Source of the DNA: Cladorhizidae sp. MBARI D1340-BT2 | Lineage: Eukaryota > Porifera > Demospongiae > Poecilosclerida > Cladorhizidae | Length of the DNA: 64,000 bases | Assembly: GCA_028752905.1 (NCBI GenBank) | Contig: JAQNBH010000007.1 | Span: forward strand, 20,399,938 to 20,463,937 | Direction: 5' to 3' | Shown here: positions 2,161-49,650 of the stretch, one piece after another | Position numbering within the stretch: the first letter of the stretch is position 1 | Layout: each line of letters starts with the position of its first letter | Program-made: the position numbers and the translations under genes | Notes under the pieces: generated by a model | Database searches by the model: none | What the model was told of the DNA's origin: nothing | Seen by the model: the letters and a program-made list of their open reading frames with translations, nothing else

Positions 2161-3125
2161 AATGAGCAATAGATAACGAGCAATAGATAACGAGCAATAG
2201 ATAACGAGCAATAGATAACGAGCAATAGATAACGAGCAATAGATAACGAGCAATAGATAATGAGCAATGCAATAGAATGAGCAATAGATAATGAGCAATA
2301 GATAATGAGCAATAGATAACGAGCAATAGATAACGAGCAATAGATAACGAGCAATAGATAACGAGCAATAGATAACGAGCAATAGATAACGAGCAATAAA
2401 TAATGAGCAATAAATAATGAGCTATAGATACTGAGCAATAGATAATGAGCAATAAATAATGAGCTATAGATAATGAGCAATAGATAACGAGCAATAGATA
2501 ATGAGCAATGCAATAGAATGAGCAATAGATAATGAGCAATAGATAACGAGCAATAGATAACGAGTCTATACTCTGCAGCACATGGTAATAGCCATGAACA
2601 CACACTCAGACAACCTCTCCCAGTCAATACTCTGCAGCACATGGTAATAGCCATGACCACACACTCAGACAACCTCTCCCAGTCTATACTCTGCAGCACA
2701 TGGTAATAGCCATGAACACACACTCAGACAACGAGCAATAGATAACGAGCAATAGATAATGAGCAATGCAATAGAATGAGCAATAGATAATGAGCAATAG
2801 ATAACGAGCAATAGATAACGAGCAATAGATAACGAGCAATAGATAACGAGCAATACATAATGAGCTATAGATAATGAGCAATAGATAATGAGCAATAGAT
2901 AATGAGCAATAGATAAGGAGCAATAGATAATGAGCAATAGATAAGGAGCAATAGATAATGAGCAATAGATAAGGAGCAATAGATAACGAGCAATAGATAA
3001 CGAGCAATAGATAACGAGCAATAGATAAGGAGCAATAGATAACGAGCAATAGATAACGAGCAATAAATAATGAGCAATAAATAATGAGCTATAGATAATG
3101 AGCTATAGATAATGAGCAATAAAGG
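2155..3125. repeat. 14-bp tandem array (agcaatagataacg)
   Basis: Directly continues the 13-bp array but with a 14-bp unit (agcaatagataacg / agcaatagataatg), about 55 copies. A 59-bp repeat block interrupts it at 2566-2731. The two unit lengths share the agcaatagat core, so one derives from the other by replacement of the last 3-4 bases. Confidence 0.95.
2566..2731. repeat. 59-bp tandem repeat inside the 14-bp array
   Basis: Nearly three copies of a 59-bp unit containing ctctgcagcacatggtaat and acacacactcagacaacc. The block is flanked on both sides by the same 14-bp array. Confidence 0.85.
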
Positions 3126-3441
3126 CTGACAGCTGCAACCATCTCTTCCTAGGACTTGATAGCTGTTTCTGGAAGCTTTTCTATGAGGAAGGCTGCAGGG
3201 GCACCTTGGCTCACCGGGGACCACTATGAATCTCTTAGCTCTTGAGACTTGAGAAAGGAGGCACTCCTGGATGGGTTACTACGCTGCATGTTTTGTTGTA
3301 GCGCAATAGGTAAAGGTTGGAACTTATTTTACCAGGCGAACACATACCACGGACTGCACTAGCTATATTGGTTTGACCCACTGACTGACGGCAACATCCA
3401 ACTACCATTTAGGCAGCTTCTTAGCTTTCTTCTCACTTGAC

Positions 3442-3743
3442 ATGGCTGCCTCTTTACAGTTCTGCAATGATCTTGTCCGTAAGATGCACCCTCGGACAAA
3501 TACTGAGAATAGGACCAATGAAATGGTAGATACGAACATCACACCAGCAAATTCACACCGGAAGACATGTGTGAAGAGAAGAAGTCCTTGAAGGACAGGC
3601 TAGCCACACCTTCTTTACCCCACTCTGGTTTAGTGGTGACTGATGCAAGATCTCCCATAAGAGCTGATACTGAAAGTGCTCCACTAAAACCAACTGATGG
3701 CTTGATTCCTGTGGCAGAAGACCGCCGCTACACCAAAACTTAA
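3442..3743 (+). pseudogene. Coding-like locus in two overlapping frames
   Basis: Frame 1 runs from ATG 3442 (context gacATGG) to TGA at 3589 (49 aa, starts MAASLQFCNDLVRK). Frame 2 is open from 3522, has an ATG at 3567, and ends at TAA 3741 (58 aa from the ATG, starts MCEEKKSLKDRLATPS). Both have normal protein composition, and the second continues where the first fails, as expected from a one-base indel near 3550-3590 in a once-continuous reading frame. No pseudo-intron of reasonable length joins them. The acidic/basic, Ser/Pro-rich product is unrecognised. 3126-3441 upstream holds no recognisable feature. Confidence 0.4.
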
Positions 3744-4357
3744 CTTCTCGGGAGCATGTCAGATAAATAATGCTGGTTGATGAATGCAACAAGTATACAT
3801 AGCAACACAGGGATATTATCCAGTGGTTATGCATTTGCAGATGCTGACTAAGACAAGAGTGACCGAGGTCAGATCTAACTTGAACCAATTATAACCCTTT
3901 AGGGGGTAAAGAATAGTGGCCGAAGAATTCACGGGGAAAATATCCGTATATTGCCTAATGTATAGTAGAAGCCACACCCCACTCTGCTGCTCTTCGTCAC
4001 ACCTGTGGTGGACTGGGATTCTAACCGTGAAAACTGCAAATATTAAGCTATCCCAAAACATCCTATGCATGAAATCATTGTCCTTTTAATCATGCATATG
4101 TAGGTAGTTAGGAAAGTGGATGCACAGGGTGGTTTCTGCTGGAGATAGTGGCATGTTCTACCAATCACTAATCAGGACAAGTGCTGATAGCAACCTATTT
4201 CAATTTCAAAACTTTTTTGTTATATTTGCCAGAAGTCACTTCTAGCCACAGCTCTGCAAGTCATACGAACAGTGATCCTTATCCTAATATTATAGAGTCA
4301 CATCAACTCCTTAATAGAGTGGAGATATTCCAATTTCAAGCTGTATTGTGATGGTGG
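3744..4357. other. No gene seen
   Basis: Unique DNA between the coding-like locus and the hAT element. An 84-codon minus frame (3816-4070) has no splice signals or recognisable motif and is taken as chance. Confidence 0.5.
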
Positions 4358-4489
4358 CTATATTAGACCCCCTGGAAATCCGTTTAAAAAAATACCTTTT
4401 TCCGTTTCAGATTTTTCTAAATTCCGTTTCACACCATGATTTATGTTTTTTTCCGTTTCAACAAATAAATAATTTATTATACACATTAA

Positions 4490-5281
4490 TCAACTAAAAC
4501 GTCCTTCTATATCACCATTGTGATACAGCATAACAAGTTTTTTTGTGTTCTCTTCAGTAAGACTCCCTCTTCTATCATTAAGGAGGTGTTTATACTGAGA
4601 AAAACTTCGTTCACAGTCAACTGATGCCACAGGCATCCAAATAGCATCTGAGGCAACTGCCACAAGTAGAGGGAAACGACCACTCACGCTCTCCCAAAAT
4701 GCTTGAAGATTCAATGGAGATGGAAGAGCACTTGGTGGTAATTAGATTAGCCATTCTTCATGTAGCTCTGCTGATGGACTCTTAAGTCCTGGGATGACAT
4801 CAAAGTCAGTGATGTCATGTCCCACGATAGCCAATTGTCGTGGATCAAAAACACGAACTGCCTTGTAATATGCATAGGCTGGATGATTGTCCACATGACC
4901 ACAAAGTTTTTTATAGGACAAATTAAAGACTTTTTGGAAGGACTTGATCTGTTTCTTTCTCTCTGGCACAGGTAGCTACGATAACAGACGATCAGTTTCA
5001 GTTCCAAAGGTAGTCTTCTCGCAACCGGCTCTCAGATGCATCTTAATATCCTCCAGATAATTGAAGACCTTACATGCCAGTGGAGTTTCCTTCTCTTCAA
5101 GAGCAGTGAGTACAGTCATCAGCCGCTGGCAGTTCTCCTTAATGAAGTACAGCTGAAGAATGATTTCAGGATAGATCATTTTATGGCTAACCAGCTCAAT
5201 AATACGCTCTATAGCCATTCGCACTCCTTTCTCTGCCTTGTAAAATCCCTCATAGAGATGGACTCTGGTAGCATGATACAT
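4490..5281 (-). pseudogene. hAT transposase C-terminal fragment
   Basis: One minus-strand frame runs from 5281 to a stop at 4490-4492, interrupted by two in-frame stops (TAG 4976-4978, TAA 4742-4744). The last part carries the hAT C-terminal dimerisation signature: a hydrophobic segment, then PVASVDCERSFSQ, KHLLNDRRGSLTEEN and KLVMLYHN, matching the family pattern 'P.S.....ERSFS..k.i....R..L..e.l..L......'. The preceding helices (FYKAEKGVRMAIERI, KKLCGHVDNHPAYAY) fit the region before it. The N-terminal BED finger and most of the DDE core are missing. The protein cannot be active. Confidence 0.85.
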
Positions 5282-5945: not shown

Positions 5946-8900
5946 GTTCATAGCTACATACAGACATGAGCAACACAGGGAGATCAACTATCATAGCTAC
6001 ATTCAGACAGGAGCAACACAGGGAGATCAACTATCATAGCTACATACAGACAGGAGCAACACAGGGAGTTCAACTATCATAGCTACATACAGACAGGAGC
6101 AACACAGGGAGATCAACTATCATAGCTACATACAGACAGGAGCAACACAGGGAGATCAACTATCACAGCTGCATACAGACAGGAGCAACACAGGGAGATC
6201 AACTATCACAGCTGCATACAGACAGGAGCAACACAGGGAGATCAACTATCATAGCTACATACAGACAGGAGCAACACAGGGAGATCAACTATCATAGCTA
6301 CATACAGACAGGAGCAACACAGGGAGATCAACTATCATAGCTACATACAGACAGGAGCAATACAGGGAGATCAACTATCATAGCTGCATACAGACAGGAG
6401 CAACACAGGGAGATCAACTATCATAGCTGCATACAGACAGGAGCAACACAGGGAGATCAACTATCACAGCTGCATATAGACAGGAGCAACACAGGGAGAT
6501 CAACTATCATAGCTACATACAGACAGGAGCAACACAGGGAGATCAACTATGATCAACTATCATAGCTACATACAGGCAGGAGCAACACAGGGAGATCAAC
6601 TATCATAGCTACATACAGACAGGAGCAACACAGGGAGATCAACTATCACAGCTGCATACAGACAGGAGCAACACAGGGAGATCAACTATCACAGCTGCAT
6701 ACAGACAGGAGCAACACAGGGAGATCAACTCTCATAGCTGCATACAGACAGGAGCAACACAGGGAGATCAACTATCATAGCTACATACAGACAGGAGCAA
6801 CACAGGGAGATCAACTATCACAGCTGCATATAGACAGGAGCAACACAGGGAGATCAACTATCATAGCTACATACAGACAGGAGCAACACAGGGAGATCAA
6901 CCATGATCAACTATCATAGCTACATACAGGCAGGAGCAACACAGGGAGATCAACTATCATAGCTACATACAGACAGGAGCAACACAGGGAGATCAACTCT
7001 CACAGCTACATACAGACAGGAGCAACACAGGGAGATCAACTATCACAGCTGCATACAGACAGGAGCAACACAGGGAGATCAACTATCATAGCTACATACA
7101 GACAGGAGCAACACAGGGAGATCAACTATCATAGCTACATACAGACAGGAGCAACACAGGGAGATCAACTATCATAGCTACATACAGACAGGAGCAACAC
7201 AGGGAGATCAACTATCATAGCTACATACAGACAGGAGCAATACAGGGAGATCAACTATCATAGCTACATTCAGACAGGAGCAACACAGGGAGATCAACTA
7301 TCATAGCTACATACAGACAGGAGAAACACAGGGAGATCAACTATCATAGCTACATACAGACAGGAGCAACACAGGGAGATCAACTATCATAGCTACATAC
7401 AGACAGGAGCAACACAGGGAGATCAACTATCATAGCTACATACAGACAGGAGCAACACAGGGAGATCAACTATCACAGCTGCATACAGACAGGAGCAACA
7501 CAGGGAGATCAACTATCATAGCTACATACAGACAGGAGCAACACAGGGAGATCAACTATCATAGCTACATACAGACAGGAGCAACACAGGGAGATCAACT
7601 ATCATAGCTACATCCAGACAGGAGCAACACAGGGAGATCAACTATCACAGCTGCATACAGACAAGAGCAACACAGGGAGATCAACTATCACAGCTACATA
7701 CAGACAGGAGCAATACAGGGAGATCAACTATCATAGCTGCATACAGACAGGAGAAACACAGGGAGATCAACTATCATAGCTGCATACAGACAGGAGCAAC
7801 ACAGGGAGATCAACTCTCATAGCTGCATACAGACAGGAGCAACACAGGGAGATCAACTATCATAGCTACATACAGACAGGAGCAACACAGGGAGATCAAC
7901 TATCATAGCTGCATTCAGACAGGAGCAACACAGGGAGATCAACTATCATAGCTACATTCAGACAGGAGCAACACAGGGAGATCAACTATCATAGCTACAT
8001 ACAGACAGGAGCAACACAGGGAGATCAACTATCATAGCTACATACAGACAGGAGCAACACAGGGAGATCAACTATCATAGCTACATACAGACAGGAGCAA
8101 CACAGGGAGATCAACTATCATAGCTACATTCAGACAGGAGCAACACAGGGAGATCAACTATCATAGCTACATACAGACAGGAGCAACACAGGGAGATCAA
8201 CTATCATAGCTACATACAGACAGGAGCAACATAGGGAGATCAACTATCATAGCTACATACAGACAGGAGCAACACAGGGAGATCAACTATCATAGCTACA
8301 TACAGACAGGAGCAACACAGGGAGATCAACTATCATAGCTGCATACAGACAGGAGCAACACAGGGAGAGATCAACTATCATAGCTACATACAGACAGGAG
8401 CAACATAGGGAGATCAACTATCATAGCTACATACAGACAGGAGCAACACAGGGAGATCAACTATCATAGCTACATACAGACAGGAGCAACACAGGGAGAT
8501 CAACTATCATAGCTGCATACAGACAGGAGAAACACAGGGAGATCAACTATCATAGCTGCATACAGACAGGAGCAACACAGGGAGATCAACTATCATAGCT
8601 ACATACAGACAGGAGCAATACAGGGAGATCAACTATCATAGCTACATACAGACAGGAGCAACACAGGGAGATCAACTATCACAGCTGCATACAGACAGGA
8701 GCAACACAGGGAGATCAACTATCATAGCTACATACAGACAGGAGCAACACAGGGAGATCAACTATCAACAGCTGCATACAGACAGGAGCAACACAGGGAG
8801 ATCAACTATCATAGCTACATACAGACAGGAGCAACACAGGGAGATCAACTATCATAGCTACATACAGACAGGAGCAACACAGGGAGATCAACTATCATAG

Positions 8901-11900
8901 CTGCATACAGACAGGAGCAACACAGGGAGATCAACTATCACAGCTGCATACAGACAGGAGCAACACAGGGAGATCAACTATGATCAACTATCATAGCTAC
9001 ATACAGGCAGGAGCAACACAGGGAGATCAACTATCATAGCTACATACAGACAGGAGCAATACAGGTATCATAGCTACATACAGACATGAGCAACACAGGG
9101 AGATCAACTATCACAGCTGCATATAGACAGGAGCAACACAGGGAGATCAACTATCATAGCTGCATACAGACAGGAACAACACAGGGAGATCAACTATCAT
9201 AGCTACATACAGACAGGAGCAACACAGGGAGATCAACTATGATCAACTATCATAGCTACATACAGGCAGGGCAACACAGGGAGATCAACTATCATAGCTA
9301 CATACATACAGACAGGAGCAACACAGGGAGATCAACTCTCACAGCTACATACAGACAGGAGCAACACAGGGAGATCAACTATCACAGCTGCATACAGACA
9401 GGAGCAACACAGGGAGACAACTATCATAGAGCTCTACATACAGACAGGAGCAACACAGGGAGATCAACTATCATAGCTACATACAGACAGGAGCAACACA
9501 GGGAGATCAACTATCATAGCTGCATACAGACAGGAGCAACACAGGGAGATCAACTATCATAGCTACATACAGACAGGAGCAATACAGGGAGATCAACTAT
9601 CATAGCTACATACAGACAGGAGCAACACAGGGAGATCAACTATCATAGCTACATACAGACAGGAGCAACATAGGGAGATCAACTATCATAGCTACATACA
9701 GACAGGAGCAACACAGGGAGATCAACTATCATAGCTACATACAGACAGGAGCAACACAGGGAGATCAACTATCATAGCTGCATACAGACAGGAGCAACAC
9801 AGGGAGAGATCAACTATCATAGCTACATACAGACAGGAGCAACATAGGGAGATCAACTATCATAGCTACATACAGACAGGAGCAACACAGGGAGATCAAC
9901 TATCATAGCTACATACAGACAGGAGCAACACAGGGAGATCAACTATCATAGCTGCATACAGACAGGAGAAACACAGGGAGATCAACTATCATAGCTGCAT
10001 ACAGACAGGAGCAACACAGGGAGATCAACTATCATAGCTACATACAGACAGGAGCAATACAGGGAGATCAACTATCATAGCTACATACAGACAGGAGCAA
10101 CACAGGGAGATCAACTATCACAGCTGCATACAGACAGGAGCAACACAGGGAGATCAACTATCATAGCTACATACAGACAGGAGCAACACAGGGAGATCAA
10201 CTATCAACAGCTGCATACAGACAGGAGCAACACAGGGAGATCAACTATCATAGCTACATACAGACAGGAGCAACACAGGGAGATCAACTATCATAGCTAC
10301 ATACAGACAGGAGCAACACAGGGAGATCAACTATCATAGCTGCATACAGACAGGAGCAACACAGGGAGATCAACTATCACAGCTGCATACAGACAGGAGC
10401 AACACAGGGAGATCAACTATGATCAACTATCATAGCTACATACAGACAGGAGCAACACAGGGAGATCAACTATCATAGCTACATACAGACAGGAGCAACA
10501 CAGGGAGATCAACTATCATAGCTACATACAGACAGGAGAAACACAGGGAGATCAACTATCATAGCTACATACAGACAGGAGCAACACAGGGAGATCAACT
10601 ATCATAGCTACATACAGACAGGAGCAACACAGGGAGTTCAACTATCATAGCTACATACAGACAGGAGCAACACAGGGAGATCAACTATCATAGCTACATA
10701 CAGACAGGAGCAACACAGGGAGATCAACTATCATAGCTACATACAGACAGGAGCAACACAGGGAGATCAACTATCATAGCTACATACAGACAGGAGCAAC
10801 ACAGGGAGATCAACTATCATAGCTACATACAGACAGGAGCAACACAGGGAGATCAACTATCATAGCTACATACAGACAGGAGCAACACAGGGAGATCAAC
10901 TATCATAGCTACATACAGACAGGAGCAACACAGGGAGATCAACTATCACAGCTGCATACAGACAAGAGCAACACAGGGAGATCAACTATCATAGCTACAC
11001 ACAGACAGGAGCAATACAGGGAGATCAACTATCATAGCTGCATACAGACAGGAGCAACACAGGGAGATCAACTATCATAGCTGCATACAGACAGGAGCAA
11101 CACAGGGAGATCAACTATCATAGCTACATTCAGACAGGAGCAACACAGGGAGATCAACTATCATAGCTACATACAGACAGGAGCAACACAGGGAGATCAA
11201 CTATCATAGCTGCATACAGACAGGAGCAACACAGGGAGAGATCAACTATCATAGCTACATACAGACAGGAGCAACACAGGGAGATCAACTATCATAGCTG
11301 CATACAGACAGGAGAAACACAGGGAGATCAACTATCATAGCTGCATACAGACAGGAGCAACACAGGGAGATCAACTATCATAGCTACATACAGACAGGAG
11401 CAATACAGGGAGATCAACTATCATAGCTACATACAGACAGGAGCAACACAGGGAGATCAACTATCACAGCTGCATACAGACAGGAGCAACACAGGGAGAT
11501 CAACTATCATAGCTACATACAGACAGGAGCAACACAGGGAGATCAACTATCAACAGCTGCATACAGACAGGAGCAACACAGGGAGATCAACTATCATAGC
11601 TACATACAGACAGGAGCAACACAGGGAGATCAACTATCATAGCTACATACAGACAGGAGCAACACAGGGAGATCAACTATCACAGCTGCATATAGACAGG
11701 AACAACACAGGGAGATCAACTATCATAGCTACATACAGACAGGAGCAACACAGGGAGATCAACTATGATCAACTATCATAGCTACATACAGGCAGGAGCA
11801 ACACAGGGAGATCAACTATGATCAACTATCATAGCTACATACAGGCACGAGCAACACAGGGAGATCAACTATCACAGCTGCATACAGACAGGAGCAACAC

Positions 11901-14083
11901 AGTGAGATCAACTATCATAGCTTCATACAGACAGGAGCAACACAGGGAGATCAACTATCATAGCTACATACAGACAGGAGCAACACAGGGAGATCAACTA
12001 TCACAGCTGAATACAGACAAGAGCAACACAGGGAGATCAACTATCATAGCTACATACAGACAGGAGCAATACAGGGAGATCAACTATCATAGCTGCATAC
12101 AGACAGGAGCAACACAGGGAGATCAACTATGATCAACTATCATAGCTACATACAGGCAGGAGCAACACAGGGAGATCAACTATAATAGCTACATACAGAC
12201 AGGAGCAATACAGGTATCATAGCTACATACAGACATGAGCAACACAGGGAGATCAACTATCACAGCTGCATATAGACAGGAGCAACACAGGGAGATCAAC
12301 TATCATAGCTGCATACAGACAGGAACAACACAGGGAGATCAACTATCATAGCTACATACAGACAGGAGCAACACAGGGAGATCAACTATGATCAACTATC
12401 ATAGCTACATACAGGCAGGGCAACACAGGGAGATCAACTATCATAGCTACATACATACAGACAGGAGCAACACAGGGAGATCAACTCTCACAGCTACATA
12501 CAGACAGGAGCAACACAGGGAGATCAACTATCACAGCTGCATACAGACAGGAGCAACACAGGGAGACAACTATCATAGAGCTCTACATACAGACAGGAGC
12601 AACACAGGGAGATCAACTATCATAGCTGCATACAGACAGGAGCAACACAGGGAGATCAACTATCATAGCTACATACAGACAGGAGCAATACAGGGAGATC
12701 AACTATCATAGCTACATACAGACAGGAGCAACATAGGGAGATCAACTATCATAGCTACATACAGACAGGAGCAACATAGGGAGATCAACTATCATAGCTA
12801 CATACAGACAGGAGCAACACAGGGAGATCAACTATCATAGCTACATACAGACAGGAGCAACACAGGGAGATCAACTATCATAGCTACATACAGACAGGAG
12901 CAACACAGGGAGATCAACTATCATAGCTGCATACAGACAGGAGCAACACAGGGAGATCAACTATCACAGCTACATACAGACAGGAGCAACACATGGAGAT
13001 CAACTATCACAGCTACATACAGACAGGAGCAATACAGGGAGATCAACTATCATAGCTACATACAGACAGGAGCAACACAGGGAGATCAACTATCATAGCT
13101 ACATACAGACAGGAGCAACACAGGGAGATCAACTATCATAGCTACATACAGACAGGAGCAACACAGGGAGATCAACTATCATAGCTACATACAGACAGGA
13201 GCAATACAGGGAGATCAACTATCATAGCTGCATACAGACAGGAGCAACACAGGGAGATCAACTATCATAGCTGCATACAGACAGGAGCAACACAGGGAGA
13301 TCAACTATCACAGCTGCATATAGACAGGAGCAACACAGGGAGATCAACTATCATAGCTACATACAGACAGGAGCAACACAGGGAGATCAACTATCATAGC
13401 TACATACAGACAGGAGCAACACAGGGAGATCAACTATCATAGCTACATACAGACAGGAGCAACACAGGGAGATCAACTATCATAGCTACATACAGACAGG
13501 AGCAACACAGGGAGTTCAACTATCATAGCTACATACAGACAGGAGCAACACAGGGAGATCAACTATCATAGCTACATACAGACAGGAGCAACACAGGGAG
13601 ATCAACTATCATAGCTACATACAGACAGGAGCAACACAGGGAGATCAACTATCATAGCTACATACAGACAGGAGCAACACAGGGAGATCAACTATCAACA
13701 GCTGCATACAGACAGGAGAAACACAGGGAGATCAACTATCATAGCTACATACAGACAGGAGCAACACAGGGAGATCAACTATCATAGCTACATACAGATA
13801 GGAGCAACACAGGGAGATCAACTATCATAGCTACATACAGACAGGAGCAACACAGGGAGATCAACTATCATAGCTACATACAGACAGGAGCAACACAGGG
13901 AGATCAACTATCATAGCTGCATACAGACAGGAGCAACACAGGGAGATCAACTATCATAGCTACATTCAGACAGGAGCAACACAGGGAGATCAACTATCAT
14001 AGCTACATACAGACAGGAGCAACACAGGGAGATCAACTATCATAGCTACATACAGACAGGAGCAACACAGGGAGATCAACCCT
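5946..14083. repeat. 8.1-kb satellite, 43-bp unit, ~188 copies
   Basis: The unit starts gatcaactatcatagctac and ends gacaggagcaacacaggga, 43 bp. Common variants are catagctaca/cacagctgca, gcaatacag, gagaaacac and a 10-bp internal duplication (gatcaactatgatcaac). Private variants occur in the same order in distant blocks, so the array grew by segmental duplication. The spot cagggagagatc recurs at 8361, 9800 and 11232. A distinctive ~200-bp variant string recurs at 9239 and 12388 (spacing 3149). The 43-bp period rotates all frames, and a catag variant supplies TAG stops, so the 104-107-codon frames here are not genes. Confidence 0.98.
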
Positions 14084-28654: not shown

Positions 28655-29465
28655 CCAATAGATATACTAGTAATACACCAATAGATATACTGGTAATATA
28701 CCAATAGCTATACTAGTAATACACTAATAGCTACACTAGTAATACACCAATAGCTAAACTGGTAATATACCAATAGCTATACTAGTAATACACCAATAGC
28801 TATACTAGTAATACACTAATAGCTACACTAGTAATACACCAATAGCTATACTAGTAATACACCAATAGATATACTAGAAATTCACCAATAGATATACTAG
28901 TAATACACCAATAGCTATACTAGTAATACACCAATAGCTATACTAGTAATACACTAATAGCTATACTAGTAATACACCAATAGATATACTAGTAATAGCT
29001 ATACTAGTAATACACCAATAGATATACTAGTAATACACCAATAGCTATACTAGTAATACACCAATAGCTATACTAGTAATACACCAATAGCTATACTAGT
29101 AATACACCAATAGCTATACTAGTAATACACCAATAGCTATACTAGTAATACACCAATAGCTATACTAGTAATACACCAATAGCTATACTAGTAATACACC
29201 AATAGATATACTAGTAATACACCAATAGCTATACTAGTAATACACCAATAGTAATACACCAATAGCTATAATACACTAATAGCTATACTAGTAATACACC
29301 AATAGCTATACTAGTAATACACCAATAGCTACACTAGTAATACACCAATAGCTATACTAGTAATACACCAATAGCTATACTAGTAATACACCAATAGCTA
29401 TACTAGTAATACACCAATAGCTAAACTAGTAATACACCAATAGCTATACTACTAATACACCAATA
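28655..29465. repeat. 23-bp tandem array, ~35 copies
   Basis: Unit aatacaccaatagctata followed by ctagt (23 bp). Variants agatata, agctaca, agctaaa and acactaat. It abuts the 54-bp array without a spacer. Confidence 0.96.
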
Positions 29466-29669
29466 CATGTGCCCTGCCTAGTCCTAGATCACTGGAAAGA
29501 GCATAGTGGGCACTTACTACATGTGTCCTGCCTAGTCCTAGATCACTGGAAAGAGCATAGTGGGCACTTGCTACATGCGCCCTGCCTAATACTAGACCAC
29601 TGGAAAGAGCATAGTGGGCACTTGCTACATGTGCCCTGCCTAATACTAGACCACTGGAAAGAGCATAGT
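29466..29669. repeat. 54-bp satellite, left part (~4 copies)
   Basis: Same unit as the array at 33004-35985: contains tgcctagtcctagatcactg, gaaagagcatagtgggcact and tgctacatgt. The array is split by the transposon at 29670-33000, and the break falls inside gagcatagtgggc. Confidence 0.97.
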
Positions 29670-29960
29670 TAGTATCCTAAAATTAGCCATATTTAGATCC
29701 AATCTAAGAAATAATTTTAAACAAGCTGGTTTCAACTGATTTTGGTAAGTATGGGTGTCAAGACTCACCAAAAAAAAGTAAGGTGGGGTAGGGGGTGGGG
29801 AAAACTTTTGGGGGGTCAAAAGGTCATCGATCGCCCCAAAATTGTAAAACATTGTATCTCGACAACTAAATACCCAACATTTTTTATCTTGGTGTCAAAA
29901 TGCTCAGAATTGTACCATGATGATGCACAAAAAATCTGGGATCCTTTAGGACCAACTCTT
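29670..29960 (+). repeat. Left terminal inverted repeat
   Basis: Pairs with 32710-33000. Starts TAGTATCC. Best conserved from the ttttaaacaagctggtttca block through the G-rich gtaaggtggggtagggggtg block, then patchy similarity. Confidence 0.8.
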
Positions 29961-29991
29961 GAGAGATGTTTGTGGGTGTTATCTGTATTGA

Positions 29992-30177
29992 GAGTAGTTG
30001 TGGCTTGTGGTCAGGTTTGCTTAGAAACCTGCAGGATCTTGCACAAAACCTGCATGATCCTGCCCAGCTTGCACCCTTTGATGGGAGTAGTTGTGGCTTG
30101 TGGTCAGGTTTGCTTAGAAACCTGCAGGATCTTGCACAAAACCTGCATGATCCTGCCCAGCTTGCACCCTTTGATGG
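29992..30177 (+). repeat. 93-bp direct duplication upstream of TATA
   Basis: Two virtually identical copies (29992-30084 and 30085-30177), and the start of a third (30178-30200). Each contains the inverted words GCAGGATC and GATCCTGC about 17 bp apart, able to form a hairpin. Placed 55-240 bp before the TATA box, so a regulatory or transposase-binding repeat is plausible. Confidence 0.9.
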
Positions 30178-30231
30178 GAGTTGGTGGTTTGTGCAGGATT
30201 CTCCAAGAACATTATGTGTGCTGCGTTTGTC

Positions 30232-30239
30232 TATAAAAG
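30232..30239 (+). promoter_or_regulatory. TATA box of the transposon gene
   Basis: TATAAAAG at 30232, 54 nt before the ATG at 30286. A start site about 30 nt downstream would leave a leader of roughly 25 nt and makes 30286 the first ATG, excluding the in-frame upstream ATG at 30181. Confidence 0.65.
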
Positions 30240-30285
30240 GACTAGACATTGGCATAAGGTTGGTATCTTACTCCATTCGAGCAAA

Positions 30286-32539
30286 ATGGAAAGGAGGTGT
30301 GAGATTTGTACTGAGGACTCATCAGAAGCAGGAAAGCTACAGAAGTTGTACACTAAGGGCTATGAGAACCTAATTGAGCATTGTAGACATATCAGCGACT
30401 CTTCCTTGTTAGAGCGATTGGAAAGAAAATGGACTAGCAACATTCCTATGACCGTCCATCAAAGATGCAGAGCCCTTTTCATGCAAAAGGAGCCTGATGT
30501 TGAAGAACAGGAGCATGAACCACGCCCTAAACGTCAAAAAGTGTCACAATCTGTAAATGACGATAATGGTAAGAGTCACTTGAATTTCCCATAATCTTAT
30601 TGCAATCCCCTACATAACATGCATACAATATACTGTTGATTTGGCTAACTTAGTCCAGATAATAATTTCAGACCGGGGTCCTACACGATTTCCGTACAGT
30701 GAAAGATGTATCATCTGCAATGAGGACATCCATTTTGACGAAAGACATCCTGCCAGACAGCAGACCATACGTCAGGCATCAACTATCACACTTAAGACAT
30801 CACTTCTGAGAATAGCAAGTGCAAGAAAAGATAGTCTTGGAATGGCTGTCCAAGGACGCTTGGAAGGCATTGCAGATCTTGTAGCAGAAGAGGCTGTCTA
30901 TCATTGCAAATGCTACTGCACCCTGTATGATGTACCAGGTCGACGTAATGTTAGTAAAATTGCTAGAGTATGTATACCATAATTAATTATTCCAAAAAAA
31001 CTTTATTTTCAGAAATCTGGAAGGCCTGTGGATGGTTCTAAGGAAAATGCCTTCTACAAGCTCTGCGGGTGGTTTGACAGTGAAATGGAGAGTGGTGTTT
31101 ACACTGTAAGCCAATTGCAAGAGCAAATGAAGATATTAGTAGGTGATGATGACCTTCCAGTGTATCATGAGAAATATTTGAAACAAGCACTCGAGAGGCA
31201 CTATGGTAATAGTATATTCATTACAAATCAAAAACATAGGAAGGATGTTGTCTGCTTTAGGAACTGCACGGCAGATATCACCAGAGACTACCACAAGAAG
31301 ATGGAAACAGGTAATGAAGACGAGAAAAAGAAAGCCATCATTAAAATGGCTGCTTTGCTCATTATGAATGACATAAAGTGTCTTAACTTCAGCAAAGAGG
31401 AATTTCCCTCGCTTATAGAAATGACATCCCATTATGAGCTACCAGAATCTCTTGAACTGCTGTTAACATGTTTAATGCCGCATTCATCAGCCAGGAGAAA
31501 TGTTGCAGGGCAAAATATTATATCTTCACAACGCCCAAGATCATCCAAGATGCCTTTCCAGCTCGGCATGAGCTTATGCCTTGATCATAAGTTCGGTTCA
31601 GATCAGCTGATTAACATCATGCACAGCATTGGCATATGTGAAAGTCCAAAAGAGGGTACGGACTACAAGTACACATACATTGACTCGACTAATAACACAC
31701 ATGCAGCATCAATGGCAGTACTGGAGAAGCAGATTGAGCAGCACATTGGTGACAACATGGACCATGATTTGATAACCTTAGATGGAAAGTCAGGGTTTCA
31801 TGCCATGGGACTTATCAAAGTCACCACACCAGAAAATGCCAATCAACTTGAAATTGATGAGAATAGGAAGATGCAGCGAAAACCAATTGTAAAGAATGAA
31901 ACTCTTTCAAATATGGAAGGTTTGCAACATTATGTGTACCAACCAACAAATGCTCTACTGGAAACTAAGCTAATAAAGTATGAAGAACTTCTGCAAGAAA
32001 TACCTGAAAGATCCATTCCAATAGATATAGCTGTTAAAGACTGGTACATTGGATGGGTAGAAGGAAGATCCCTTCATCCAAATTTCATGGGGTTTATGCA
32101 TCAGAAATACAATGGACTAACATTGAAATCTTCCATTGAGTTTCTGCGCATCATCAATGCAAATCCGAATGACATGCAGACAATATACACCACAATCATG
32201 AGAGCTATCAAAGGAACGCATGAATCCCCAGCAATCATAACTTTCGACCTTCCTCTGTTCATAAACACCACTGTTCTTAAGCCAATTGGAAGAGGATGGG
32301 AGTTAGATAGCAATGGAAAACTCAGACCGAAGATGCTGTCCATTCCTATTGCCCCAGACAACCTTCTGAAAGGAATTTGCTGCAACTACAAGGAAGGGGA
32401 GAGGCAGTGCCAAACCATGAAATGCAGCTGCATGAGAGCTGGCATGTCATGTGTTTCTGCATGTGGTGTGTGCTGTGGACACTGTTCTAATGGAGCAGAT
32501 GTAGAGGAACTTGGTAGCGATGAAGAGGAAAATGACTAA
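30286..32539 (+). CDS. Putative transposase, 701 aa, three exons, novel family
   Basis: Exons 30286-30568, 30672-30967 and 31013-32539 join in frame (2106 nt). Splice sites are AATG|GTAAGA..atttcag|ACC (103-nt intron) and AGA|GTATGT..tattttcag|AAA (45-nt intron). Start ATG context is gcaaaATGg. Residues 1-94: C5-x2-C8 and H58-x2-C61, a possible zinc site, then a basic RPKRQK at 80-85. Residues 95-193: a second C107-x2-C110 and YHCKCYC at 171-177. The rest is a largely helical body with conserved-looking DWYIGWVEGRSLHP and AIITFDLPLF (Asp about 605). C-terminus: ten Cys between 649 and 684 (C-x4-C-x-C-x6-C-x3-C-x2-CC-x2-C), like a tesmin/TSO1 CXC-type DNA-binding cluster, then an acidic tail. 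Similar Cys-tailed uncharacterised proteins occur in invertebrate genomes (recalled). No stop or frameshift. Role as transposase is inferred from position. Confidence 0.8.
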
Positions 32540-32709
32540 ATATGTTATAGCTATGCTGTAATCAGTATGTCAATTATTTGTTTACTACTTGATTCTTTGC
32601 ACTTGATTCTTTGATGCATTGTTTGACACCATGCAGCTTCAAAATTATATGATACATAATAATATTATGCCATGTCAATGACACTTTTTGACCTTTGACC
32701 TCACATTTG

Positions 32710-33000
32710 GAGGTCAAGGTTTGGTAACTAAGGGTCCAAAAAAATTTGGGGGGCCCTTCTTGCATAATTCTGTGCATTTTGACACCAGGATCAACCACAT
32801 GACCTTGTTTTGTTACCGAGATACAAGTTTAAGTGATTTAGGCCGGGGATAAATGACCTTTAACCCCAGAAAAAGTTTTCCCCACCCCCTACCCCACCTT
32901 ACTTTTTTTTGGTAAATCTTGACACCCATACCTACTAAAATCAGTTGAAACCAGCTTGTTTAAAATTATTTTCTAGTTGAGATTTAAGTTAGGGATACTA
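32710..33000 (-). repeat. Right terminal inverted repeat
   Basis: Reverse complement partner of 29670-29960, ending GGATACTA. 32540-32709 between the stop codon and this repeat is AT-rich 3' flank without a clear AATAAA. Confidence 0.8.
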
Positions 33001-33003
33001 AGT

Positions 33004-35985
33004 GGGCACTTGCTACATGTGTCTTGCCTAGTCCTAGACCACTGGAAAGAGCATAGTGGGCACTTGCTACATGTGCCCTGCCTAGTCCTAGATCACTGGA
33101 AAGAGCATAGTGGGCACTTGCTACATGTGCCCTGCCTAGTCCTAGACCACTGGAAAGAGCATAGTGGGTACTTGCTACATGTGTCCTGCCTAATCCTTGA
33201 TCACTGGAAAGAGCACAGTGGGCACTTGCTACATGTGTCCTGCCTAGTCCTAGATCACTGGAAAGAGCATAGTGGGCACTTGCTACATGTGCCCTGCCTA
33301 GTCCTAGATCACCGGAAAGAGCATAGTGGGCACTTGCTACATGTGTCCTGCTAGTCCTAGATCACTGGAAAGAGCATAGTGGGTACTTGCTACATGTGCC
33401 CTGCCTAGTCCTAGATCACTGGAAAGAGCATAGTGGGCACTTGCTACATGTGCCCTGCCTAGTCCTAGATCACTGGAAAGAGCATAGTGGGCACTTGCTA
33501 CATGTGTCCTGCCTAGTCCTAGACCACTGGAAAGAGCATAGTGGGTACTTGCTACATGTGTCCTGCCTAGTCCTAGATCACTGGAAAGAGCATAGTGGGC
33601 ACTTGCTACATGTGCCCTGCCTAGTCCTAGACCACTGGAAAGAGCATAGTGGGCACTTGCTACATGTGCCCTGCCTAGTCCTAGATCACTGGAAAGAGCA
33701 TAGTGGGTACTTGCTACATGTGTCCTGCCTAGTCCTAGATCACTGGAAAGAGCATAGTGGGCACTTGCTACATGTGCCCTGCCTAGTCCTAGATCACTGG
33801 AAAGAGCATAGTGGGCACTTGCTACATGTGTCCTGCCTAGTCCTAGATCACTGGAAAGAGCATAGTGGGCACTTGCTACATGTGTCCTGCCTAGTCCTAG
33901 ACCACTGGAAAGAGCATAGTGGGCACTTGCTACATGTGCCCTGCCTAGTCCTAGATCACTGGAAAAGCATAGTGGGCACTTGCTACATGTGCCCTGCCTA
34001 GTCCTAGATCACTGGAGAGAGCATAGTGGGCACTTGCTACATGTGTCCTGCCTAGTCCTAGATTACTGGAAAGAGCATAGTGGGCACTTGCTACATGTGT
34101 CCTGCCTAATACTAGACCACTGGAAAGAGCATAGTGGGCACTTGCTACATGTACCCTGCCTAGTCCTAGATCACTGGAAAAGCATAGTGGGCACTTGCTA
34201 CATGTGCCCTGCCTAGTCCAAGATCACTGGAGAGAGCATAGTGGGCACTTGCTACATGTGTCCTGCCTAGTCCTAGATCACTGGAAAGAGCATAGTGGGC
34301 ACTTGCTACATGTGCCCTGCCTAGTCCTAGATCACTGGAAAGAGCATAGTGGGCACTTGCTACATGTGTCCTGCCTAGTCCTAGATCACTGGAAAGAGCA
34401 TAGTGGGCACTTGCTACATGTGCCCTGCCTAGTCCTAGATCACTGGAAAGAGCATAGTGGGCACTTGCTACATGTGTCCTGCCTAGTCCTAGACCACTGG
34501 AAAGAGCATAGTGGGCACTTGCTACATGTGTCCTGCCTAGTCCTAGATCACTGGAAAGAGCATAGTGGGCACTTGCTACATGTGTCCTGCCTAGTCCTAG
34601 ACCACTGGAAAGAGCATAGTGGGCACTTGCTACATGTGTCCTGCCTAGTCCTAGATCACTGGAAAGAGCATAGTGGGCACTTGCTACATGTGTCCTGCCT
34701 AGTCCTAGATCACTGGAAAGAGCATAGTGGGCACTTGCTACATGTGACCTGCCTAGTCCTAGACCACTGGAAAGAGCATAGTGGGCACTTGCTACATGTG
34801 TCCTGCCTAGTCCTAGATCACTGGAAAGAGCATAGTGGGCACTTGCTACATGTGCCCTGCCTAGTCCTAGATCACTGGAAAGAGCATAGTGGGCACTTGC
34901 TACATGTGCCCTGCCTAGTCCTAGATCACTGGAAAGAGCATAGTGGGCACTTGCTACATGTGCCCTGCCTAGTCCTAGATCACTGGAAAAGCATAGTGGG
35001 CACTTGCTACATGTGTCCTGCCTAGTCCTAGATCACTGGAAAGAGCATAGTGGGCACTTGCTACATGTGTCCTGCCTAGTCCTAGATTACTGGAAAGAGC
35101 ATAGTGGGCACTTGCTACATGTGTCCTGCCTAATACTAGACCACTGGAAAGAGCATAGTGGGCACTTGCTACATGTGACCTGCCTAGTCCTAGATCACTG
35201 GAAAGAGCATAGTGGGCACTTGCTACATGTGTCCTGCCTAGTCCTAGATCACTGGAAAGAGCATAGTGGGCACTTGCTACATGTGTCCTGCCTAGTCCTA
35301 GATCACTGGAAAGAGCATAGTGGGCACTTGCTACATGTGTCCTGCCTAGTCCTAGATCACTGGAAAGAGCATAGTGGGCACTTACTACATGTGTCCTGCC
35401 TAGTCCTAGATCACTGGAAAGAGCATAGTGGGCACTTGCTACATGTGCCCTGCCTAGTCCTAGATCACTGGAAAGAGCATAGTGGGCACTTGCTACATGT
35501 GTCCTGCCTAATCCTAGATCACTGGAAAGAGCATAGTGGGCACTTTCTACATGTGTCCTGCCTAGTCCTAGATCACTGGAAAGAGCATAGTGGGTACTTG
35601 CTACATGTGCCCTGCCTAGTCCTAGATCACTGGAAAGAGCATAGTGGGCACTTGCTACATGTGCCCTGCCTAGTCCTAGATCACTGGAAAGAGCATAGTG
35701 GGCACTTGCTACATGCTACATGTGCCCTGCCTAACAATGGAAAGAGCATAGTGGGCACTTGCTACATGTGTCCTGCCTAGTCCTAGACCACTGGAAAGAG
35801 CATAGTGGGCACTTGCTACATGTGTCCTGCCTAGTCCTAGATCACTGGAAAGAGCATAGTGGGCACTTGCTACATGTGCCCTGCCTAGTCCTAGATCACT
35901 GGAAAGAGCATAGTGGGCACTTGCTACATGTGTCCTGCTAGTCCTAGATCACTGGAAGGAGCATAGTGGGCACTTGCTACATAGA
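33004..35985. repeat. 54-bp satellite, main part (~55 copies)
   Basis: 54 bp, divisible by three, so plus frames of 60-276 codons arise, broken only where 1-2-bp deletions (ggaaaagcatag, cctgctagt) occur. Block duplications are visible: the string with attactgg/taatactagacc recurs at 34062-34130 and 35085-35145. Confidence 0.98.
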
Positions 35986-46683: not shown

Positions 46684-46837
46684 TCAGAAGACTTTGCCAT
46701 GCCTGGTTCTCTCGGTCATGCTAAATGGATGCCACTTGCAAGTATTATTGTCTTGTTCCCTGGGTTTTCATGGCTCTAATAGACAGTTTCTCTACGCCGC
46801 ACACAATTTAAGTGGATGTTGATCAGAAGGAGCAGAT

Positions 46838-49650
46838 CTAGCACTCATTACATAATGATCCAGCACTCATTACATAATGATCCAGCACTCATCACATAAT
46901 GAACCAGCACTCATCACATAATGAACCAGCACTCATTATAATGATCTAGCACTCATTACATAATGAACCAGCACTCATTACATAATGATCCAGCACTCAT
47001 TACATAATGATCCAGCACTCATTACATAATGATCTAGCACTCATTACATAATGAACCAGCACTCATTATAATGATCTAGCACTCATTACATAATGATCCA
47101 GCACTCATTACATAATGAACCAGCACTCATTACATAATGATCCAGCACTCATTACATAATGATCCAGCACTCATTAGATAATGATCCAGCACTCATTACA
47201 TAATGATCCAGCACTCATTACATAATGATCTAGCACTCATTACATAATGATCTAGCACTCATTACATAATGATCTAGCACTCATTACATAATGATCCAGC
47301 ACTCATCACATAATGAACCAGCACTCATCACATAATGAACCAGCACTCATTACATAATGATCCAGCACTCATTACATAATGAACCAGCACTCATTACATA
47401 ATGATCTAGCACTCATTACATAATGATCCAGCACTCATCACATAATGAACCAGCACTCATTACATAATGATCTAGCACTCATCACATAATGAACCAGCAC
47501 TCATCACATAATGAACCAGCACGCATTACATAATGATCCAGCACTCATTACATAATGAACCAGCACTCATTACATAATGATCTAGCACTCATTACATAAT
47601 GATCCAGCACTCATTACATAATGATCCAGCACCCATCACATAATGAACCAGCACTCATTACATAATGATCTAGCACTCATTACATAATGATCTAGCACTC
47701 ATCACATAATGATCCAGCACTCATTACATAATTATCTAGCACTCATTACATAATGATCCAGCACTCATTACATAATGATCAAGCACTCATTACATAATGA
47801 TCCAGCACTCATTACATAATGATCCAGCACTCATTACATAATGAACCAGCACTCATTACATAATGATCTAGCACTCATTACATAATGATCTAGCACTCAT
47901 CACATAATGATCCAGCACTCATTACATAATTATCTAGCACTCATTACATAATGATCCAGCACTCATTACATAATGATCTAGCACTCATTACATAATGATC
48001 CAGCACTCATCACATAATGAACCAGCACTCATTACATAATGATCCAGCACTCATTACATAATGAACCAGCACTCATTACATAATGATCTAGCACTCATTA
48101 CATAATGATCCAGCACTCATCACATAATGAACCAGCACTCATTACATAATGATCCAGCACTCATTACATAATGAACCAGCACTCATTACATAATGATCTA
48201 GCACTCATTACATAATGATCCAGCACTCATTACATAATGATCCAGCACCCATCACATAATGAACCAGCACTCATTACATAATGATCCAGCACTCATCACA
48301 TAATGAACCAGCACTCATTACATAATGATCTAGCACTCATTACATAATGATCTAGCACTCATCACATAATGATCCAGCACTCATTACATAATTATCTAGC
48401 ACTCATTACATAATGATCCAGCACTCATTACATAATGATCAAGCACTCATTACATAATGATCTAGCACTCATTACATAATTATCTAGCACTCATTACATA
48501 ATGATCCAGCACTCATTACATAATGATCCAGCACTTACATAATGAACCAGCACTCATCACATAATGATCCAGCACTCATTACATAATGATCTAGCACTCA
48601 TTACATAATGATCTAGCACTCATTACATAATGAACCAGCACTCATCACATAATGAACCAGCACCCATTACATAATGATCTAGCACTCATTACATAATGAA
48701 CCAGCACTCGTCACATAATGAACCAGCACCCATTACATAATGAACCAGCACTCATCACATAATGAACCAGCACTCATTACATAATGATCCAGCACTCATT
48801 ACATAATGAACCAGCACTCATTACATAATGATCCAGCACTCATTACATAATGATCTAGCACTCATTACATAATGATCTAGCACTCATTACATAATGATCC
48901 AGCACTCATTACATAATGATCCAGCACTCATTACATAATGAACCAGCACTCATCACATAATGATCTAGCACTCATTACATAATGATCTAGCACTCATTAC
49001 ATAATGATCTAGCACTCATTACATAATGAACCAGCACTCATCACATAATGAACCAGCACCCATTACATAATGAACCAGCACTCATCACATAATGAACCAG
49101 CACTCATTACATAATGATCCAGCACTCATTACATAATGATCTAGCACAGCACCCATTACATAATGAACCAGCACTCATCACATAATGAACCAGCACCCAT
49201 TACATAATGAACCAGCACTCATCACATAATGAACCAGCACTCATTACATAATGATCCAGCACTCATTACATAATGATCTAGCACAGCACCCATTACATAA
49301 TGAACCAGCACCCATTACATAATGAACCAGCACTCATTACATAATGATCTAGCACTCATTACATAATGATCTAGCACAGCACCCATTACATAATGAACCA
49401 GCACTCATCACATAATGAACCAGCACCCATTACATAATGAACCAGCACTCATCACATAATGAACCAGCACCCATTACATAATGAACCAGCACTCATTACA
49501 TAATGATCTAGCACAGCACCCATTACATAATGAACCAGCACTCATTACATAATGATCCAGCACTCATTACATAATGATCTAGCACTCATTACATAATGAT
49601 CTAGCACAGCACCCATTACATAATGAACCAGCACCCATTACATAATGAAC
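46838..49650. repeat. 2.8-kb satellite, 22-bp unit, ~128 copies
   Basis: Unit gatccagcactcattacata + at. The first five bases alternate among gatcc, gatct and gaacc, and the middle between cattac and catcac. Higher-order order is repeated (e.g. attatctagc at 47731, 47930, 48390, 48480). Units with an extra cagcaccc occur only at the right end (from 49141). Confidence 0.98.

Follow-up and report, generated by a model that had tools for sequence, protein, structure and literature searches.

We consider it highly probable that the transposon at 29670..33000 of the window (the whole stretch of 64,000 nucleotides that was analysed, C16:20399938-20463937) is a copy with an internal deletion from a young family of predicted cut-and-paste transposons, most likely AcademX (Academ), and that it likely needs the enzyme of full-length copies. 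A previous sequence-only reading had described a young and possibly active transposon here, and a young, mobile element is supported: tips are shared, 3-bp target site duplications (TSDs) are present and near-identical copies occur elsewhere in the genome. The element and its target site are delimited as follows, positions being those of the window.

29670..33000, + strand: internally deleted DNA transposon of a probably AcademX-like family, 3331 bp, recognised by its tips, its terminal inverted repeats (TIRs), its TSD and the 39 further copies fetched from the genome
29670..29911, + strand: left TIR, strong from about 29693
32766..33000, - strand: right TIR
29667..29669, no strand: TSD AGT, left copy, located from the 54-bp repeat register
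33001..33003, no strand: TSD AGT, right copy, placed in the same way

The tips read TAGTATCC/GGATACTA. Aligned over 212 bases, the TIR arms agree in 188, and their local score is 240, whereas none of 200 shuffles scored above 27; the inverted matches comprise I1, 143 nt long with 87% identity, and I2, 29 nt long with 90% identity. Tips and long TIRs are thus as previously described. The element is inserted into a host array of a 54-bp tandem repeat, which it splits into 29464-29669 and 33001-35982. Joining of the flanks after removal of exactly 3 bp brings back the array register at 114 of 120 positions, whereas removal of 0, 1, 2, 4, 5, 6 or 7 bp gives a match of at most 74 of 120. Since only the 3-bp removal restores the array, the TSD is AGT, 3 bp in length, and the element ends at 33000. 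The window (1-64000) is rich in minisatellites, with a 43-bp array at 5948-14080 and a 22-bp array at 46835-49648 besides the 54-bp array at 33001-35982.

The host genome as searched comprises 857 Mb in 325 contigs. Using the left 301 bp as query we obtained 286 first-look candidates, the best 40 of which (the window's included) were scored and proved all 99-100% identical at their left ends, in line with the youth previously ascribed to the element; being the best-scoring of 286, these 40 bias identities and class counts towards window-like copies. All 39 non-window copies were fetched, 11 of them extended, and over aligned shared sequence the 38 that were compared (L026 left out) are 99.0-100% identical to the window copy. 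The same tips with an exact 3-bp TSD were found in 38 of 40 copies, that is, in 28 of the 28 with both ends in the first fetched set, in 9 of ten more and in the window, and the TSDs vary in sequence (AGT, TAA, AAG, CCT, GGC, TTC and others). In copy L021 the right tip is interrupted by an insertion, and the TSD was read by eye as ACA; L026, which has an internal repeat of its own and was partly fetched, without its right end, is excluded from the full-length and deletion counts. The absence of other copies with these termini, which the sequence-only reading named as one of two results that would overturn it, was not what we found. L019 (C11:13732509) and L020 (C11:12983810), about 0.75 Mb apart, are alike in flanks and TSD and are probably one insertion duplicated, by segmental duplication or as an assembly repeat.

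Five of the 39 fetched copies (L021, L025, L036, L037 and L046) are full-length, measuring 5.6-5.7 kb between the same tips. The predicted five-exon frame of L025 is open throughout and encodes 1416 residues; one stop interrupts the frame in L036 and in L037, two copies of identical sequence at different sites, whereas in L046 a stretch close to the start is frame-shifted and L021 has both a frame-shifted stretch and a stop. For the 1416-aa protein the predicted parts are an N-terminus that contains Cys, a DDE transposase of RNase H-like type with D440 or D443, D605 and E732 as catalytic candidates, a nuclease of the Exo1/FEN1/XPG type and a tail rich in Cys, the nuclease of the full-length relatives being supported by both predicted structure and profile. 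Compared to L036, the window copy is missing 2338 bp, positions 2594-4931, with microhomology of 1 bp at the junction. Its coding sequence is thereby shortened in frame by 2145 bases, or 715 codons; the predicted DDE domain loses its end, and the predicted nuclease is lost entirely. As the missing 2338 bp belong to the region encoding predicted transposase and flap nuclease, the window copy likely moves only with full-length enzyme, and its earlier description as intact does not hold beside the 5.6-5.7 kb copies. Clean inverted repeats that flank an open frame are, then, no proof that a transposon is autonomous. The features of the shortened gene and its surroundings are these.

29992..30181, + strand: a 93-bp unit, present twice in tandem, upstream of the gene; in the alignment many other copies have one unit fewer
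30232..30239, + strand: TATA-box-like TATAAAAG, a putative promoter by its sequence
30286..30568, + strand: predicted exon 1 with the Cys-containing N-terminus, splice sites predicted
30672..30967, + strand: predicted exon 2, splice sites predicted
31013..32539, + strand: predicted exon 3, ending at TAA; the deletion has joined it to the terminal part of the last exon of the full-length gene
31751..31762, + strand: DNMD motif, which holds the candidate for the first catalytic Asp (residues 440/443, numbered on the 1416-aa frame)
32246..32248, + strand: candidate second catalytic Asp, in TFDLPL (residue 605)
32262..32263, + strand: deletion junction, at which 2338 bp are absent relative to full-length copies, 1 bp microhomology (T)
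32372..32485, + strand: Cys-rich C-terminal tail, in which one Cys of the relatives is Tyr in the window copy

The three exons give a predicted frame of 701 aa. Of the complete three-exon gene with a TATA box that had been proposed, the box and the three-exon frame thus stand, and completeness falls, the full-length relatives having 1416 codons. The differing number of 93-bp units marks the region upstream of the gene as polymorphic in the family. A search of the protein collection with exon 3 returned 29 matches, mainly in two sets, and these were aligned with P0028 and P0029 left out. The 15 chains of the first set (P0001-P0015) align to the window product as far as TFDLPLFI, after which all 15 continue with RLGGFH and, where length allows, AERLHDW. 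Among aligned rows with a residue at the site, the second D of DNMD is present in 23/23, the first in 20/22 and the D of residue 605 in 29/29; the position of the candidate catalytic Glu, in the region missing from the window copy, is Glu in 24/26.

Apart from the full-length copies and L026, the 33 other fetched copies carry deletions, which fall into 14 classes including the window's class A (L009). The 30-mer spanning the window's junction has exact matches at two places in the genome only, both on C16 and about 0.88 Mb apart, the one outside the window being at C16:19555033, and the two elements that contain it are identical over 3331 bp, with TSDs AGT versus TAA; identical shortened copies with different TSDs imply at least one jump after the deletion. 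Class B, a different deletion, accounts for 12 of the 39 fetched copies, again with varied TSDs. Of the 12 deletion junctions measured, 11 share 0-5 bp and one (class F) has nine extra bases, the picture being partly blurred by single-base differences. This microhomology pattern fits incomplete gap repair, without proving it. A protein search of the genome with the nuclease half gave at least 85 matches, some covering part of the query, 63 of which are without a stop; other copies could therefore supply the enzyme.

Several known superfamilies were considered for the family and set aside. PIF/Harbinger elements duplicate TWA/TTA, and the 3-bp TSDs here vary in sequence (AGT, TAA, AAG, CCT, GGC, TTC); CACTA/EnSpm elements have CACTA-type tips, unlike TAGTATCC/GGATACTA; and Tc1/mariner and piggyBac, with their TA or TTAA TSDs, do not fit the AGT fixed by the array register together with the varied 3-bp TSDs elsewhere. 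On tips and motif-free 3-bp TSDs, then, the previously noted misfit to piggyBac, Tc1/pogo, CACTA and Harbinger is supported. The nuclease of AcademX elements is of the XPG type. AcademX, the nuclease-bearing Academ branch in Repbase, combines transposase and nuclease in one element, as is predicted here, and its TSDs measure 3 or 4 bp and those of AcademH 9 or 10 bp, a difference that has been tied to the nuclease and helicase that they encode (PMC10045372); the family here has 3-bp TSDs in 38 of 40 copies and a predicted DDE/D transposase. The full-length copies, at 5.6-5.7 kb, are also near the mean of 5565 bp given for curated bivalve Academ elements (PMC10294476). By these described features (TSD, nuclease, DDE/D) the family is most likely AcademX, and the earlier verdict of no recognised superfamily is probably wrong, the full-length relatives matching the description of AcademX in PMC10045372. 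The window copy itself differs from AcademX in lacking the DDE domain end and the nuclease, and the family as a whole places an Exo1/FEN1/XPG-type 5' nuclease as a predicted domain inside a transposon protein.

Origin outside Academ, in a new lineage that independently combined a flap nuclease with a DDE transposase of P/hAT-like type, we hold to be improbable. The P superfamily, with TSDs of 8 bp, does not fit the 3-bp TSDs here, and the nuclease-bearing architecture is not described for P in the literature compared; moreover, nuclease plus 3-4-bp TSD is the combination given for AcademX (PMC10045372). That the window element is, on the contrary, an intact and autonomous representative of a new superfamily, working with the 701-aa protein alone, is hardly credible: its frame is open, a TATA-like box is present and the identical shortened form occurs at a second genomic site, but the conserved GGFH region that follows in 15 of 15 aligned transposase-half relatives and the candidate Glu kept in 24 of 26 rows are both lost, full-length copies with the same tips reside in the same genome and the junction 30-mer occurs at two places only.

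The same open frame and TATA-like box would suit a KP-like repressor that keeps the end-binding parts, loses catalysis and blocks the full-length transposase. As a shortened form the window copy resembles the KP derivative of the Drosophila P element, repressor activity being putative here, and it shares in form both properties listed for P-element repressors, a transposase that is interrupted and an N-terminal region that is kept (PMC12393704). We nonetheless judge this reading unlikely, for end-binding by the N-terminus is putative, one tail Cys is Tyr and the junction is carried by two copies only. In addition, in-frame fusion, which we rejected as a signature of selection, is seen in 5 of 11 exon-to-exon deletion classes (a count that omits classes C, E and N, in which a breakpoint is not exonic, and also L029's second deletion) and is no commoner than chance (P 0.29), so that selection for a repressor is not supported. 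Improbable, too, is a variant in which, in a mobile AcademX, the Exo1-like nuclease of the 1416-residue chain cuts the second strand and the window's hopped 701-residue fusion, end-binding with both active sites lost, is dominant-negative.

The preferred reading, a deleted copy dependent on full-length enzyme, suggests the following course of events. The DDE domain would cut the 3' ends of the element and join them to a target cut with a stagger of 3 bp; a cut-and-paste transposase of this kind fits the 3-bp TSDs. The flap nuclease would probably trim or cut the non-transferred strand at the ends, or process the donor gap. Incomplete repair of that gap may give rise to deleted copies such as the window element, which, because both ends are intact, could then be mobilised in trans by the full-length protein, and such mobilisation would account for the jumps after deletion. 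With its near uniformity among the copies examined, its exact TSDs, one full-length copy with an open predicted frame and its natural deletions the family offers a good start for studying the role of a flap nuclease in transposition.

Other matches of the protein searches may be added. The second set of exon 3 relatives, the 12 chains P0016-P0027, matches the last part only (16-18% of the query), preceded by a different domain. Four more distant single chains (P0045, P0075, P0076 and P0119) contain both parts as judged by eye and by alignment to both halves. Pfam searches with the 701-aa protein and seven relatives gave no match above cut-offs, single-sequence searches of the PDB gave weak matches only (best E 1.2 and 0.59) and one scan of viral_contigs found no relative. 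P0028 (446 aa, from a 14301-nt contig) is a transposase relative that continues into a frame for which Pfam PF00078 (reverse transcriptase) is precomputed, perhaps a nested insertion. The homologue P0075 (992 aa) is labelled as from a Sedimenticola MAG and may be eukaryotic DNA binned with the bacterium rather than a bacterial gene.
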